In this document: positions 47,109 through 52,667 of the stretch, in pieces
How the letters are laid out: each line of letters opens with the position of its first letter
Numbering within the stretch: position 1 is the first letter of the stretch
Assembly (NCBI RefSeq): GCF_014201825.1
Contig: NZ_JACHFJ010000014.1
Location: forward strand, 1-60,849
From: Acidocella aromatica
GTDB lineage: Bacteria; Pseudomonadota; Alphaproteobacteria; Acetobacterales; Acetobacteraceae
Direction of reading: 5' to 3'
Length of the DNA stretch: 60,849 nucleotides
Program-made: the position numbers and the translations under genes
Notes under the pieces: model-generated
What the model was told of the DNA's origin: nothing
What the model saw: the letters and a program-made list of their open reading frames with translations, nothing else
The model's database searches: none

Positions 47109-48506
47109 TCAGCAAATCGTCACATTGGCGGCTAGCCCGCCCAGGCTGGTTTCCTTGTACTTGCTCTGCATATCGAATCCCGTCTGGCGCATGGTCTCGA
47201 TCACCGCATCCAGCGATACGATATGCGTGCCATCGCCTTGCAAGGCGAGCGACGCGGCGGTGATGGCCTTAATCGCGCCAAAGGCGTTGCGCTCGATGCA
47301 CGGCACCTGCACCAGCCCACCGATAGGGTCGCAGGTCATGCCAAGATGGTGTTCCATGGCGATCTCTGCCGCATTCTCCACCTGCGCATTGCTACCGCCC
47401 AACGCCGCGCACAGCCCCGCCGCGGCCATGGCCGAAGCCGAGCCAACCTCCCCCTGGCACCCCACCTCGGCACCCGAGATAGAGGCATTGCGCTTGATAA
47501 GCCCGCCAACGGCGGCGGCGGTCAGGAAGAATGTCCGCACCCCCGCCTCGTCGGCGGTATCACAGAAATCCCGGTAGTAGCGCAGCACGGCGGGTATCAC
47601 CCCGGCGGCGCCATTGGTGGGGGCCGTCACCACGCGCCCGCCAGCGGCATTCTCCTCGTTCACCGCCATGGCGAAGGCACAGACGTAATCTAGATGCGTA
47701 TGCGGAATGAACTCGTTGCGCTGCGCCCTGCCCTGCAACCCGGCATAAATATGCCGGGCCCGGCGCTTCACATGCAGCCCGCCCGAAAGCTCGCCCTGCT
47801 GGGTCAGGCCGCGCTCGATACAGGCAAACATCGCCTCCGCAACCCTACCTATATAGCCAAGAACTTCTTCATTTTGGTGGCGCGCGCCCTCATTCGCCAG
47901 CGCCAGTTCCGCAATGCTTAATCCAGCCACCTGCGCCGCGTGCAGCAGCTGCGCGGCGGTGCCGTACGGATACGGCACCGAAATCTCCGCCGCTGGTTCG
48001 CTTTCCTCGCCATCACGCACCACAAAGCCGCCACCAATGGAAAACCAAAGCTGGGACAATACCTCCCGCCCAGCGGTATCGAAGGCGGTAAAGCGCATGG
48101 CATTGGTATGGCGCTTGAACTGCATCTGCCGGTCGAAGCTCACATCCCGCACCGGATCGAAGCCGATCTCCCGCCCATCCGGCAGACGCAACACATGCGC
48201 CGTGCCGATGCCGTGAAACAGCTTATCCGCCTCATCGGGAAGAATTTCATCCGGCCTGCAACCGGCCAGCCCCAGGACCATCGCCTTGTCGGTGGCGTGT
48301 CCCTTTCCCGTCCAGGCCAGCGAGCCATAGGCCGTAGCGGTCAGCCTGGCGATCTCCCCCTCCCGCCCGGCCAAGGCGCGCAGAAAGGCGTTGGCGGCGC
48401 GCATCGGGCCGACAGTATGCGACGAGGACGGGCCAATGCCGATCCTGAACAGATCCAGCAGGGAGATCGACGAGGCAGAAGCGGTGTGGCGGATTTCAGG
48501 CTGCAT
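47109..48506 (-). CDS. sdaA: L-serine ammonia-lyase (iron-sulfur type)
   Basis: A 465-residue single-chain serine dehydratase that converts L-serine to pyruvate and ammonia. The N-terminal beta domain has [20 protein letters not shown]; the C-terminal alpha domain has the [4Fe-4S] cysteines in [11 protein letters not shown] and [19 protein letters not shown], and the tail Cys that occupies the active site is present as the last residue. The ATG at 48506 has AAGGAG five bases upstream; a GTG at 48512 in frame is too close to it. Confidence 0.94.
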
Positions 48507-48632
48507 AGACACTCCTTCACCGCTGTTTTTTGCGCGGCGGGCTTTGCGGCCAGGTTATTGCAAAACCAAAAGCCACGCCACCATCCCGCAGATCATGCCA
48601 ATTTAAGAGGCATAATGTGGTTTTCACCCTTC

Positions 48633-48648
48633 ACACATAAAAATGTGT
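48633..48648. promoter_or_regulatory. small palindrome in the sdaA / CtrA-like intergenic region
   Basis: ACACAT and ATGTGT (48633-48638 and 48643-48648) flank AAAA, between the divergent sdaA and regulator genes in an AT-rich stretch. It could be an operator for either gene. No matching site was found elsewhere by eye. Confidence 0.35.
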
Positions 48649-48708
48649 CGGTTTTCATTTCTATAATCTTAATATTTACACTCTATACGGGAACATTAAA
48701 CAAATTTA

Positions 48709-48737
48709 TTGACGAGTTCTTGCTATGGTTGTATTTT
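48709..48737 (+). promoter_or_regulatory. sigma-70-like promoter of the CtrA-like gene
   Basis: TTGACG (48709-48714), 17 bp, TATTTT (48732-48737), followed about 25 bp later by the ATG with its CGGAGG. The surrounding 150 bp is clearly AT-richer than the flanking genes. No TTAA-N7-TTAA CtrA box was seen overlapping it. Confidence 0.6.
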
Positions 48738-48761
48738 CGCCTCAATCCTGCGGAGGCGAGT

Positions 48762-49502
48762 ATGAAAATCCTTTCTTTTGAGACCGCGTCGAATAAAAAA
48801 GATCTTTTAACGGCTTTCTTGCGTTCGCGCCTGGCCATCGTCGATGAGACGAATGACGGCGAGGAAGCCCTCGATCTGGTGAAGTTCTACGATTACGACG
48901 CCATCCTGCTGCGCCTGTCCGAGGAACGGCTGGGCGACCTCGAAATTATCCGCAAGCTGCGCATGGCCCGCGTCCGTGCGCCGATCGTGGCCGTGGCCCG
49001 CACCATGAACGAGGCCGCCCGGCTGCGCGTACTCCAGGCCGGGGCCGACGACCTGATCGTGGACGCCCTGTCCCACGAGGAGATTTTCATGAAGGTGCAG
49101 AACCTGATCCGCCGCTCGCGCGGGTTCCAGGAGAACGCGCTGCGCATCGGCTCCGTCGAGATCAACATGAACGCGAAAAAAATCTACGCGAAGGGCCGCC
49201 CCGTCACGCTGACGAAGAAGGAATACCAGATCGCCGAGATCCTCGCTTTGCGCAAAGGCGTGGTGCTGAGCAAGGAGGCGATCCTCGATCATCTCTATGG
49301 CGGGCTGGACGAACCGAACCCGAAAATCATCGACGTGTTCATCTGCAAGATCCGCAAGAAGCTGCAGGCGCTGGGCGTGGATGATTTCATCGAGACCAAT
49401 TGGGGCCGCGGTTACATGGTCATCGACCACCGCCAGGACGCCAACACGGCCGAGACTTTACAGCGCAATTATGCCGCCACAGAAGCCCGCGCCATCGCGT
49501 AG
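48762..49502 (+). CDS. CtrA-like response regulator with a degenerate (phospho-dead) receiver
   Basis: A 246-residue OmpR-class regulator. The C-terminal winged helix (about residues 125-230) is very CtrA-like: VTLTKKEYQIAEILALRKG, HLYGGLDEPNPKIIDVF, ETNWGRGYMV. The receiver aligns with Caulobacter CtrA without gaps at the start, but key residues are gone: the phosphoacceptor Asp51 is Arg51 (AILLRLSEE), the acidic pair after E7 is T8-A9, and the Lys of the TKPF motif is replaced (IVDALSHEE). It cannot be phosphorylated in the normal way. CGGAGG at 48751-48756 fixes the ATG at 48762. Probably a CtrA paralogue; the true CtrA would be elsewhere. Confidence 0.88.
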   Translation: MKILSFETASNKKDLLTAFLRSRLAIVDETNDGEEALDLVKFYDYDAILLRLSEERLGDLEIIRKLRMARVRAPIVAVARTMNEAARLRVLQAGADDLIVDALSHEEIFMKVQNLIRRSRGFQENALRIGSVEINMNAKKIYAKGRPVTLTKKEYQIAEILALRKGVVLSKEAILDHLYGGLDEPNPKIIDVFICKIRKKLQALGVDDFIETNWGRGYMVIDHRQDANTAETLQRNYAATEARAIA

Positions 49503-49800: not shown

Positions 49801-49890
49801 CTTGTAGCGCGTGCCGTGACTGCTTTTGTTTATTCTGAACAATCGGCCGGGACCATTGCGCCCGGTGGCGTCTTGCGAGGATTTCTCACG

Positions 49891-51147
49891 ATGAGCCTGA
49901 TTCAAAACCGCCCGCCTGTCGGACCGCTGCACCGTCACATCTCCCTGCGCCCGGAAGTCCAAGCGCTGCCGGATGTCGCCAGCCTGGTGCAAACCCTGCG
50001 CCCGGAAGAGCCGCTGCACTGCATCCGCCCCGCGGTCATCACCGCCGCCGCCCAGGCCTTCACCGCCTCTTTCAATGGCGACGTGCTGTACGCCGTGAAA
50101 TGCAACCCGGAACCCGCCGTGCTGCGCGCGCTGTGGGAAGGCGGCATCCGTCGTTTCGACTGCGCCTCCATCTCCGAAGTCTCGCTGGTGCGCCGCCTCT
50201 TCCCCGGTGCCGACATCCATTTCATGCACCCGGTGAAGTCCCGCGCCGCCATCCGCGAGGCCTGGATCATCAACGGCGTGCGTGATTTCGTGCTCGATTC
50301 CGCCGATGAGCTGCGCAAGATTCTGGAAGAGACCAACACGCCGGAAGCCGCGCGCATCGAAGCCCGTCCTGGCCTGTTCGTGCGCCTCGCTCTGCCCGAG
50401 ACCGGTGCGGCCATCAATCTCTCCAAGAAGTTCGGCGCGGATGCCGCCACCGCCGTGGAGCTGCTGCGCGCCGCCCGTCCGCATGCGGGCAAGCTCGGCG
50501 TCGCCTTCCATGTCGGCTCGCAATGCACCGACCCTCTGGCTTGGCGTGACGCCATGGCCCTGGCTGGCGAAGTGATCCGCGCCGCTGGCGTGCGCATCGA
50601 GGTCATCGATGTCGGCGGCGGCTTCCCGGCCGCCTACCCGGACATCGACCCGCCGCCGCTCGGCGCCTTCATGGCCGAGATCGACGCCGCTTTCGACGAG
50701 CTGAACCTCCCCGGCGTGAAGCTCTGGGCCGAGCCCGGCCGCGCGCTGGTCGCGGGCGGCAGCTCCGTGGTGGTGAAGGTGCAGCTGCGCAAGGGCAACA
50801 TGCTCTACATAAACGATGGCGTTTACGGCGCCCTCGCCGATGCCGGCGCGCTGAAATTCCGCTTCCCCACCAAGCTGCTGCGGAGCCGCCCCAGCCCAGG
50901 CGCGCCAGACGCCGCCTTCGGCTTCTTCGGCCCCAGCTGCGACTCGCTGGACGTGATGCACGGCCCCTTCATCCTGCCCGACGACATTTCCGAGGGCGAC
51001 TGGATCGAGATCGGCCAGCTCGGCGCTTATGGCACCTGCCTGCGCACCGGCTTCAACGGGTTCGACCGTGCGGCCCTGGTCGAGGTCCGTGATCCGGCGA
51101 TGCTGGAAACCGCAGGCTACGCGCCGCAAGACGACATCGAAGCCTGA
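49891..51147 (+). CDS. ornithine (or ornithine/lysine) decarboxylase, fold III
   Basis: A 418-residue alanine-racemase-fold PLP decarboxylase. Lys70 in LYAVKCNPEP is the PLP anchor, VDVGGGFPA-like VIDVGGGFPAAYP binds the phosphate, and Cys350 in FFGPSCDSLDVM is the catalytic Cys from the partner subunit. It makes putrescine from ornithine (possibly cadaverine from lysine). The ATG at 49891 follows GCGAGG; the frame is open from 49816 but lacks homology there. Homospermidine synthase follows, giving a putrescine-to-homospermidine route. Probably controlled by the leader RNA upstream. Confidence 0.92.
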   Translation: MSLIQNRPPVGPLHRHISLRPEVQALPDVASLVQTLRPEEPLHCIRPAVITAAAQAFTASFNGDVLYAVKCNPEPAVLRALWEGGIRRFDCASISEVSLVRRLFPGADIHFMHPVKSRAAIREAWIINGVRDFVLDSADELRKILEETNTPEAARIEARPGLFVRLALPETGAAINLSKKFGADAATAVELLRAARPHAGKLGVAFHVGSQCTDPLAWRDAMALAGEVIRAAGVRIEVIDVGGGFPAAYPDIDPPPLGAFMAEIDAAFDELNLPGVKLWAEPGRALVAGGSSVVVKVQLRKGNMLYINDGVYGALADAGALKFRFPTKLLRSRPSPGAPDAAFGFFGPSCDSLDVMHGPFILPDDISEGDWIEIGQLGAYGTCLRTGFNGFDRAALVEVRDPAMLETAGYAPQDDIEA

Positions 51148-51242: not shown

Positions 51243-52667
51243 ATGCCCCATGACATCGCGACCGCGCATGTGCGTTTTTCCGGCCGCCTGCTGATCCTCG
51301 GCTTCGGCAGCATCGGTCAGGGCGTGCTACCCTTGCTGCTGCGCCATATCGACATGCCGAAGGAGAACGTCTCCATCCTCACCGCCGATACGCGCGGCAA
51401 CAAGGTGGCGGGCGAACTTGGCGTGCCGGAGGAAATCCTGCCCCTCACCCCGGAGAACTACCGCGAGGTGCTCACCGCCCGCCTTTCCGCCGGGGATTTC
51501 CTGCTCAACCTCTCGGTCGAGGTCTCCTCCGTGGCGCTGATCCAGCTCTGCCGCGAACTCGGCGTGCTGTATCTGGATACCTGCGTCGAGCCTTGGGCTG
51601 GCGGCTATACCGACCTCTCCCTCTCGCCCTCACAGCGTTCCAACTACGCCTTGCGCGAGAGCGCGCTTGCCCTGCAGACGGACGCCACCGCGCCGACCGC
51701 CGTCGTCGCGCATGGCGCCAATCCGGGGCTGGTCTCGCATTTCGTGAAGCAGGCGCTGCTGAACCTCGCCGCCGATACCGGCCACACCATCACTGCCCCG
51801 CCGGCGGACCGCGCGGGCTGGGGCAAGCTTGCCCAGAACCTGGGCGTGAAGGTCATCCATATCGCCGAACGCGACACCCAGGTGGCGAACATCCCCAAGC
51901 AGCGCGGCGAGTTCGTCAACACTTGGTCCATCGACGGCTTCGTCGGCGAAGGCTGCCAGCCCGCCGAACTGGGCTGGGGCACGCATGAGAAATCCCTGCC
52001 GCCCGACGGCATGAAGCACGAATTCGGCTGCGACGCGGCGATCTACCTCAACCGCCCCGGCGCCTCCACCCGCGTGCGCACCTGGACCCCGCTGGAAGGC
52101 CCGTTTCACGGCTTTCTCATCACGCATAACGAGGCCATCTCGATCGCCGATTACTTCACCCTGACCGAGAACGGCGCCGCCACCTACCGCCCGACCGTGC
52201 ATTACGCCTACCACCCCTGCGACGACGCCGTGCTCTCCGTGCACGAACTCGCCGGCAAGAACTGGGAGATGCAGGAGCGCCAGCGCCTGATGGAGGATGA
52301 GATCACCTCCGGCATCGACGAGCTGGGTGTACTGCTCATGGGCCACGCCAAGGGCGCGTATTGGTACGGCTCGCAGCTTTCCATCGAGCAGGCCCGCGCG
52401 CTGGCTCCGTATAACAACGCCACCTCCTTGCAGGTGACGGCCGCCGTACTGGCCGGTGTGATCTGGGCGATGGAAAACCCGCGCCGTGGCGTCGTCGAGG
52501 CCGATGGCATCGACCATGCCCGCATCTTGGAGATCACCACCCCCTATCTCGGCACCATGACGGGTGCGTATTCCGAGTGGACGCCCTTGCTCAAGCGCGG
52601 CGAACTCTTCGCCGAGGATGTGGACGCCGATTGCCCCTGGCAGTTCAAGAACTTCCGGGTGGTCTGA
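51243..52667 (+). CDS. hss: homospermidine synthase
   Basis: A 474-residue NAD-dependent enzyme that joins two putrescines into homospermidine, the main long polyamine of many alphaproteobacteria. It begins with a Rossmann motif (LLILGFGSIGQGVLPLL) and keeps NLSVEVSSVALIQLCRELGVLYLDTC, VVAHGANPGLVSHFVKQAL and the conserved C-terminal GTMTGAYSEWTPL. Length matches the family. Located 95 bp after the decarboxylase, likely the same transcription unit. Confidence 0.95.
   Translation: MPHDIATAHVRFSGRLLILGFGSIGQGVLPLLLRHIDMPKENVSILTADTRGNKVAGELGVPEEILPLTPENYREVLTARLSAGDFLLNLSVEVSSVALIQLCRELGVLYLDTCVEPWAGGYTDLSLSPSQRSNYALRESALALQTDATAPTAVVAHGANPGLVSHFVKQALLNLAADTGHTITAPPADRAGWGKLAQNLGVKVIHIAERDTQVANIPKQRGEFVNTWSIDGFVGEGCQPAELGWGTHEKSLPPDGMKHEFGCDAAIYLNRPGASTRVRTWTPLEGPFHGFLITHNEAISIADYFTLTENGAATYRPTVHYAYHPCDDAVLSVHELAGKNWEMQERQRLMEDEITSGIDELGVLLMGHAKGAYWYGSQLSIEQARALAPYNNATSLQVTAAVLAGVIWAMENPRRGVVEADGIDHARILEITTPYLGTMTGAYSEWTPLLKRGELFAEDVDADCPWQFKNFRVV

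Follow-up and report, generated by a model that had tools for sequence, protein, structure and literature searches.

A CtrA-family regulator lacking its phosphorylation site in Acidocella aromatica, and the association between loss of Asp51 and loss of ChpT in the Acetobacteraceae

The timing of CtrA, a textbook example of a master regulator, is governed by phosphorylation. A contig of Acidocella aromatica (60,849 nucleotides; this whole stretch of DNA is referred to below as the window) encodes a CtrA-like protein whose receiver domain lacks the phosphoacceptor aspartate, and the question that this locus raises is whether such a protein is genuine and, if so, how it may act. Table 1 reports the coordinates of the gene, of its functional elements and of its neighbours. 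A previous reading of the same DNA, called here the first-pass annotation, had given the coordinates, strand and length of the open reading frame correctly.

Table 1. Position in the window of the CtrA-like regulator gene, its elements and the flanking genes
Feature	Position	Strand	Basis or remark
Serine dehydratase	47109-48512	-	neighbour gene
Gap between serine dehydratase gene and regulator	48513..48761	+	no TTAA-N7-TTAA box within 1 mismatch
CtrA-like regulator CDS (P0001), 246 aa	48762..49502	+	ORF
Receiver domain, residues 1-118; predicted (beta-alpha)5 fold kept, active site lost	48762..49115	+	
Codons 7-9, Glu-Thr-Ala; mostly Glu-Asp-Asp in normal CtrA	48780..48788	+	alignment
Codon 51, CGC, Arg; phosphoacceptor Asp position	48912..48914	+	alignment
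Alpha4-beta5-alpha5 face, residues 84-118	49011..49115	+	dN/dS, alignment
Codon 101, GAC, Asp; conserved Lys position	49062..49064	+	alignment
Winged-helix DNA-binding domain, residues 125-221	49134..49424	+	Pfam
Recognition helix, residues 188-202	49323..49367	+	alignment, model
Ornithine/arginine-type decarboxylase	49816-51147	+	neighbour gene
Saccharopine dehydrogenase-like protein	51243-52667	+	neighbour gene

The architecture of a receiver followed by an OmpR-type winged helix is present in the regulator, according to both Pfam and the structural model. Specifically, the Response_reg family matched with 37.7 bits (cut-off 30.2) and Trans_reg_C with 67.6 bits over residues 145-219. The best NCBIfam model of 52 was the CtrA model NF045991, of the Rhodobacter type going by its name, which scored 226.6 bits and remained under its cut-off of 350. 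The AlphaFold2 model (mean pLDDT 82.3, pTM 0.55) retained the receiver fold, and its structural matches included 4qpj_C, the CtrA receiver bound to ChpT, over 118 columns with a TMt of 0.85.

Canonical receivers have the acceptor Asp lying opposite a conserved Lys. When the regulator was aligned with other alphaproteobacterial CtrA proteins, Asp51, the acidic pair and the conserved Lys all proved to be missing from its receiver: the acidic pair is replaced by Thr8-Ala9, the phosphoacceptor by Arg51 and the Lys by Asp101, while Ala79 occupies the Ser/Thr position. The first-pass annotation had recognised the change of Asp51 to Arg, which the alignment bears out; it had also described the acidic pocket as turned into Thr-Ala and the Lys as lost, and these two statements need some refinement. 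Thr and Ala indeed stand at positions 8 and 9, but of the three positions 7-9 Glu7 is retained; the Lys is indeed missing, yet it is more than lost, since an Asp has been substituted for it. With Asp at 101 and Arg at 51, the D51/K101 charge pair is therefore reversed. The same arrangement extends through the genus g1, in which Arg51 was found in 14/14 genomes, accompanied at position 101 by Asp (12 genomes) or Glu (2 genomes), and the further locus L012 is Arg51-Asp101 as well. In the genus g96 Arg51 pairs with Ser, Asn or Gly at 101, and His51 with Gln, while in g24 Ser51 is found with Gly101. These substitutions suggest a reversed Arg51-Asp/Glu101 salt bridge in g1.

According to the first-pass annotation, a sequencing error or strain-specific decay would become the more likely explanation if this were the only CtrA of the genome and the orthologues of close relatives kept Asp51. 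It is the only CtrA, but Asp51 is missing from the close relatives as well, and purifying selection acts on the gene. Related proteins at 85-91% identity include that of an Acidocella sp. MAG, and one from an Acidiphilium sp. MAG is 71% identical. Proteins of the clade type (E <= 1e-70) were found in 25/397 genomes of the family, restricted to the three genera g1 (14 genomes), g24 (1) and g96 (10, one of them with two copies). All 30 clade loci are without Asp51; once duplicates (L013, L014, L015) are merged, they correspond to 27 distinct proteins, in which position 51 is Arg in 24, His in 2, Ser in 1 and Asp in none. The g96 genome with two copies (G232; L311 and L319) carries Arg51 in both dead-receiver proteins.

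Within g1 the receiver as a whole had a median dN/dS of 0.072, its alpha4-beta5-alpha5 face (residues 84-118), which we take to be the dimer face of OmpR/PhoB regulators, one of 0.032 and the DNA-binding domain one of 0.026; the corresponding medians in g96 were 0.121, 0.093 and 0.075. The front of the receiver in g1 had a median of 0.095, about three times that of alpha4-beta5-alpha5. These medians derive from 14 g1 and 11 g96 loci after exclusion of pairs with saturated or tiny dS (pairs used for the receiver, 80/91 in g1 and 52/55 in g96; for the DNA-binding domain, 65/91 and 50/55), and the ratios are approximate because the median dS exceeds 1 and some saturated pairs were left out. Such low dN/dS values are nevertheless a strong argument against neutral decay. 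A sequencing error or a decaying pseudogene is therefore an explanation of vanishingly small probability, which we rejected, given the intact reading frame, the absence of Asp51 shared by 27/27 distinct clade proteins and the purifying selection. Judged by its sequence and those of its relatives, the regulator is a real and conserved CtrA-type protein without a phosphorylation site, the product of neither error nor decay.

A second proposal of the first-pass annotation was that the protein might either bind CtrA sites independently of the CckA-ChpT phosphorelay or dimerise with normal CtrA and poison it, and it had suggested looking for a second, normal ctrA. In favour of a dominant-negative heterodimer, other Acetobacteraceae genomes carry dead-receiver paralogues alongside a normal CtrA. 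In the host assembly, which measures 2.88 Mb and is listed as 100% complete, the search returned 11 matches at E <= 1e-5 including the regulator itself, with the next best at 29% identity, and none was a second CtrA. The ten other regulators are at most 29% identical, and the six of them that were aligned all keep the acceptor Asp. In addition, two matches at E <= 1e-70 occurred in only 1/25 clade genomes, and both were of the dead type. The regulator is thus the only CtrA-family protein of its genome and there is therefore no partner to poison; a dominant-negative role was rejected as highly improbable for this genome, barring a ctrA missing from the assembly. The other half of the proposal fared better, if indirectly, since the relay was not found in the five clade genomes searched and the recognition helix and the DNA boxes described below favour action on CtrA sites.

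Compared with 17 normal Acetobacteraceae CtrA proteins, the regulator showed a median identity of 57% (maximum 62%) in the DNA-binding domain, residues 125-221, against a median of 32% in the receiver, and over residues 171-201 the median rose to 81%. The recognition helix (residues 188-202, presumably the helix that reads the DNA) carries KIIDVFICK-RKK as in CtrA; residues 188-196, 198 and 200 do not vary among 37/37 CtrA-type sequences aligned, and at 199 and 201 at least 90% of the sequences agree. The first-pass annotation was right to call this half close to CtrA, and the differences in base-contacting residues that it had named as making competition with CtrA unlikely do not appear in the nearly invariant helix.

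We then looked at the distribution of TTAA-N7-TTAA, which we take to be the CtrA box. The host genome contains 9 exact sites, while the reversed control pattern occurs 23 times, so that a genome-wide enrichment of the box was rejected. One of the exact boxes starts 97 bp before the start codon of fliE, upstream of fliF; the identity of FliE and FliF was confirmed by Pfam. Another is located in the space that separates a divergent HTH repressor gene from a gene without assignment, and five others of the nine have no evident link. The remaining two precede a protoglobin-MCP (chemoreceptor) gene and a Roadblock-protoglobin gene, starting 69 and 71 bp upstream, so that two protoglobin-domain genes of the host genome (L332:2006-3580 and L330:2024-2976) have boxes about 70 bp upstream. 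Rhodobacter CtrA boxes are described as being of the TTAAC type in the part of PMC6363796 available to us.

Upstream of fliE-fliF, in a region of up to 900 bases before the fliF locus, the 13/13 g1 genomes with this locus contain 35 boxes when one mismatch is allowed, including 5 exact ones, as against about 4 in all predicted from shuffled sequences. Nine other spacers, ranging from 3 to 12, gave 2-15 boxes each, and three control half-sites gave at most 13 at any spacer. The count covers 13 of the 14 g1 genomes (G304 had no fliF match) and excludes a second flagellar locus of G187, with no box, and that of the g96 genome G394, with two near-boxes; the near-boxes of the 13 related g1 genomes are partly shared by descent. 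Across 26 clade loci there was no excess of the N7 spacer upstream of ctrA itself, and autoregulation through TTAA-N7-TTAA was rejected on this ground.

The flagellar protein FlhA was present in 5/5 clade genomes tested. Among the 17 genomes without a CtrA match at E <= 1e-30, the four that were tested (G029, G116, G077 and G117) lacked FlhA and kept GcrA. Outside the clade the tie between CtrA and flagella is loose, because eight of the 35 genomes tested carry CtrA without FlhA, none of them in the clade. GcrA was found in 34/35 genomes tested for it, in 33 over the cut-off.

The partners of the phosphorelay were searched for in five of the 25 clade genomes (G000, G068, G140, G023 and G096). 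ChpT was absent from 5/5, as assessed with the Pfam ChpT family and with a profile built from eight members of the family, both run on the same 150 genomes. The profile separated its targets clearly: 88/150 genomes scored at least 83 bits and everything else at most 42.6 bits. Among the weaker hits listed, the reading frames are some 400 aa or longer, a size typical of histidine kinases. In G000 the best hit reached 32.9 bits, within a frame of 567 aa that reads as a hybrid kinase. Likewise, CckA was not recognised above a threshold of 300 bits in the same five genomes when a PAS-HisKA-HATPase-REC query was used. At 1e-60 this query had no match in G068, G140 and G023, one in G000 (2.4e-70) and four in G096, the best at 265 bits, which is the level of other hybrid kinases. 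This threshold is a soft one, in that 59/79 ChpT-positive genomes exceed 300 bits and the other 20 fall below it. HisKA had 15 matches in the host genome, and another kinase remains conceivable, though the protein offers no acceptor at position 51.

The most interesting part of these data lies beyond the coordinates of the gene, in an association that runs through the family: genomes that have lost ChpT tend to have lost Asp51 too. It emerged when the pocket residues, position 51 and the Lys were compared across the Acetobacteraceae, as the first-pass annotation had recommended. From 133 genomes with a match, three were not fetched (G032, G122, G109) and two were dropped as partial sequences without residue 51 (G086, G062), leaving 128. 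Asp51 was found in 78/79 ChpT-positive genomes, the exception having Glu51, versus 17/49 ChpT-negative ones (Fisher 1.2e-16, a value that ignores shared ancestry). In the 32/49 ChpT-negative genomes without Asp51, the residue is Glu in 25, Arg in 4, Ala in 2 and Ser in 1. A full pocket (E/D7, D8, D/E9, D51, K101) was observed in 75/79 ChpT-positive versus 6/49 ChpT-negative genomes; three of these six are less than 90% complete, one of the three having CckA. The association persisted in genomes at least 90% complete, both for Asp51 (71/71 ChpT-positive versus 13/44 ChpT-negative) and for the full pocket (68/71 versus 3/44). In two genomes, G004 and G089, the protein taken as CtrA groups with dead-receiver paralogues, and a normal ctrA may therefore be missing from the assembly; both were kept in the counts, against the association.

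As regards shared ancestry, the expected direction was seen in 2-3 of 6 supported independent pairs and the opposite in hardly any, too few for significance. In an rpoB tree of 30 genomes, the clade with Arg or Ser at position 51 forms a single branch (support 100/100), while the main Glu51 group, which consists mostly of Glu51 genomes, lies on a separate branch with a ChpT-positive Asp51 genome as its sister (support 91/93). Two more Glu51 lineages fall outside both branches, at a fork without resolution. A fair reading is that at least three independent losses have occurred in the family. The ChpT-negative genome G148, with Glu51, is an assembly of 600 contigs with 5% contamination, and G084 of the same genus is ChpT-positive with Asp51. 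The sole ChpT-positive genome with Glu51, G133 (L147), is 88% complete and has no CckA match at 1e-60; G057, of the same genus, has Asp51, ChpT and a CckA match of background level only. We lean, by a small margin of confidence, towards the broader hypothesis that CtrA escaped the phosphorelay several times in the Acetobacteraceae, its receiver having been hard-wired, alongside the loss of ChpT and CckA, by the phosphomimetic-type Asp51Glu in acetic acid bacteria and others or, in Acidocella/Acidiphilium, by a dead pocket (in one genus with the Asp-Lys pair changed to Arg-Asp), and that CtrA would act there as a constitutive motility regulator.

The acceptor is lost and the relay was not found in the genomes checked, yet the protein is preserved and boxes stand before flagellar genes; the regulator is therefore probably a permanently wired switch. 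The explanation that we consider likely is that of a CtrA-family factor that no longer needs phosphorylation, with the receiver as a constitutive dimer module and the DNA-binding domain placed on TTAA-N7-TTAA boxes. In such a mechanism, ChpT, the phosphotransferase, would have disappeared from the lineage, and so, apparently, would the kinase CckA, as far as the sequences of five genomes indicate. The receiver would have kept its fold and dimerisation face, and the phosphorylation site would have turned into a fixed arrangement, Arg51 facing Asp/Glu101 in g1 and, in the sister genera, different residue sets that are likewise non-phosphorylatable. Dimerised in this constitutive manner, the protein would occupy, through an unchanged DNA-binding domain, the boxes found chiefly before fliE-fliF, with protoglobin-type taxis genes as possible further targets in view of their boxes. 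Its activity would be set by synthesis or degradation of the protein instead of phosphorylation. The DNA-binding domain and the boxes, taken together, suggest that the regulator probably acts on CtrA sites.

A different possibility is that the receiver has become a pseudo-receiver sensor, in which a new input (a protein partner, pH or a metal) replaces phosphorylation and the protein is still regulated after its synthesis. The whole receiver is conserved (dN/dS 0.07), beyond the dimer face alone, the organisms are probably acidophiles, going by the genus names of the relatives, and the structural matches include RitR, which by its title belongs to a redox-sensor family derived from response regulators. 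However, the g1 receiver front evolves about three times faster than the alpha4-beta5-alpha5 face (0.095 versus 0.032), the pocket residues vary among the three genera, and no candidate ligand site or partner was identified in the receiver. All things considered, we regard a sensor of this kind as rather unlikely, and prefer the constitutive dimer described above.

The origin of the gene is a separate matter. It might descend directly from the family's ctrA; alternatively, a CtrA paralogue with a dead receiver might have replaced the normal ctrA, which was then lost along with ChpT and CckA. A broken pocket was found in 17/20 of the second-copy genes among the matches listed, from 15 genomes, and in 10 of these 15 the first copy has a full pocket. 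Trees of the full-length proteins and of the DNA-binding domain set the clade beside Gln51 paralogues of three genomes, although long-branch attraction affects these trees; the AU test does not reject the clade with the paralogues (p 0.51), but is likewise compatible with the clade joined to G058/G134 (p 0.43). As for the DNA-binding domain, that of several paralogues is 55-61% (one 69%) identical to normal CtrA over its whole length, versus 57% for the clade. Against replacement, the clade domain is nearest to a normal CtrA, that of G058/G134 (62 and 60%), the paralogues reaching a median of 44% and 53% at best, and over residues 171-201 its identity to normal CtrA is 81%, versus 45-77% in 16/17 broken paralogues. 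In favour of replacement, the gene does not lie beside fliI/fliJ, unlike two other Acetobacteraceae loci: ctrA adjoins a flagellar-type ATPase gene and fliJ in L017, where FliJ scores under the Pfam cut-off, and in Gluconobacter cerinus L020, while neither gene stands beside ctrA in the window, L014 and L015. Weighing these points, we hold descent from a paralogue to be possible, though somewhat doubtful. Such an origin is compatible with a phosphorylation-independent mechanism and leaves the proposal made above unchanged. The dead-receiver second copies (L354, L357, L359-L373) have Asp, Gly, Asn, Gln or Arg at position 51.

Set beside known systems, the regulator shares with phosphorelay CtrA the OmpR/PhoB architecture, the recognition helix and the putative TTAA-N7-TTAA boxes before flagellar genes, but its receiver is without Asp51, acidic pair and Lys, and of its expected partners ChpT is absent and CckA was not recognised; on acceptor, pocket and partners alike, it does not qualify as a phosphorelay CtrA. 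The lack of a usable phosphoacceptor site, as read from the alignment, is a feature that it shares with the atypical, phosphorylation-independent OmpR/PhoB regulators. A parallel in kind is PDB 2hqr, presumably HP1043/HsrA of Helicobacter pylori, an orphan regulator without a working phosphorylation site that appeared among the structural matches and is titled as phosphorylation-independent; it belongs to a different subfamily and is only 23% identical to the regulator. Within the family, Glu51 CtrA was noticed in the present analysis in 26 genomes (e.g. L204, L111, L104), 25/26 of them without ChpT. The 25 ChpT-less genomes resemble the clade in having a residue other than Asp at position 51, in the loss of ChpT and in an apparently locked receiver. 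They differ in that Glu serves as a phosphomimetic residue, that Lys or Arg is retained at 101 in 25/26 of the Glu51 proteins, that the receivers of the six tested are 53-65% identical to that of normal CtrA, and that they lie on other rpoB branches. Glu51 occurs also in Gluconobacter cerinus L020 and G. cadivus L023, which the ChpT data do not cover.

In the available portion of PMC6363796, Glu at position 51 of CtrA is called phosphomimetic, and unphosphorylated CtrA of Rhodobacter capsulatus is credited with an action on gafA. Unlike the regulator, the R. capsulatus protein has Asp51, from which D51A and D51E mutants were made, and it switches between states (same portion of PMC6363796). 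Osp of Rhodobacter sphaeroides, as described in the accessible part of PMC9430884, is likewise a receiver-type protein without the acidic pair and the Lys that works unphosphorylated in the CtrA circuit, but it is a single-domain inhibitor of CckA and retains D51. That members of the CckA-ChpT-CtrA pathway are missing to varying degree was reported by Brilli et al. in 2010 for a Rhodospirillales cluster (PMC2877005, in part), and according to a 2021 paper no more than 27-36% of the genomes of Rhodospirillales have chpT, cckA and divL (PMC8116508, in part). The portions of PMC2877005 and PMC8116508 at our disposal make no mention of receiver residues or of an altered Asp51, and no report of an altered CtrA Asp51 was found by title and opening of the abstract within the open-licence PMC literature. 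The available text of PMC8116508 names Greene et al. 2012 as the source of the hypothesis that motility was the primordial role of CtrA.

What makes these proteins of wider interest is that a whole lineage keeps CtrA under strong selection without a phosphorylation site, while a larger group of relatives has the residue used as a phosphomimetic in the laboratory. With the lineage and its Glu51 relatives, comparisons and allele swaps can test what purpose CtrA phosphorylation serves and whether motility control depends on it. If the interpretation is true, they are natural mutants of the experiment otherwise made with engineered CtrA alleles.

With regard to the genomic surroundings, the serine and polyamine genes that the first-pass annotation had seen beside the regulator are indeed present. 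The serine dehydratase and decarboxylase genes flank the regulator gene also in G068 (L092), whereas the comparison with the remaining clade loci, several of which are short, gave no match for either. Lastly, genus g1 may carry a different flagellar gene set: FliF of the host (L324:9974-11500) is 44-83% identical to its counterparts within g1 but 27-30% identical, over partial length only, to those of G081, G131, G263 and G031 (L349-L352), and FlhA of three g1 genomes scores below most others tested.
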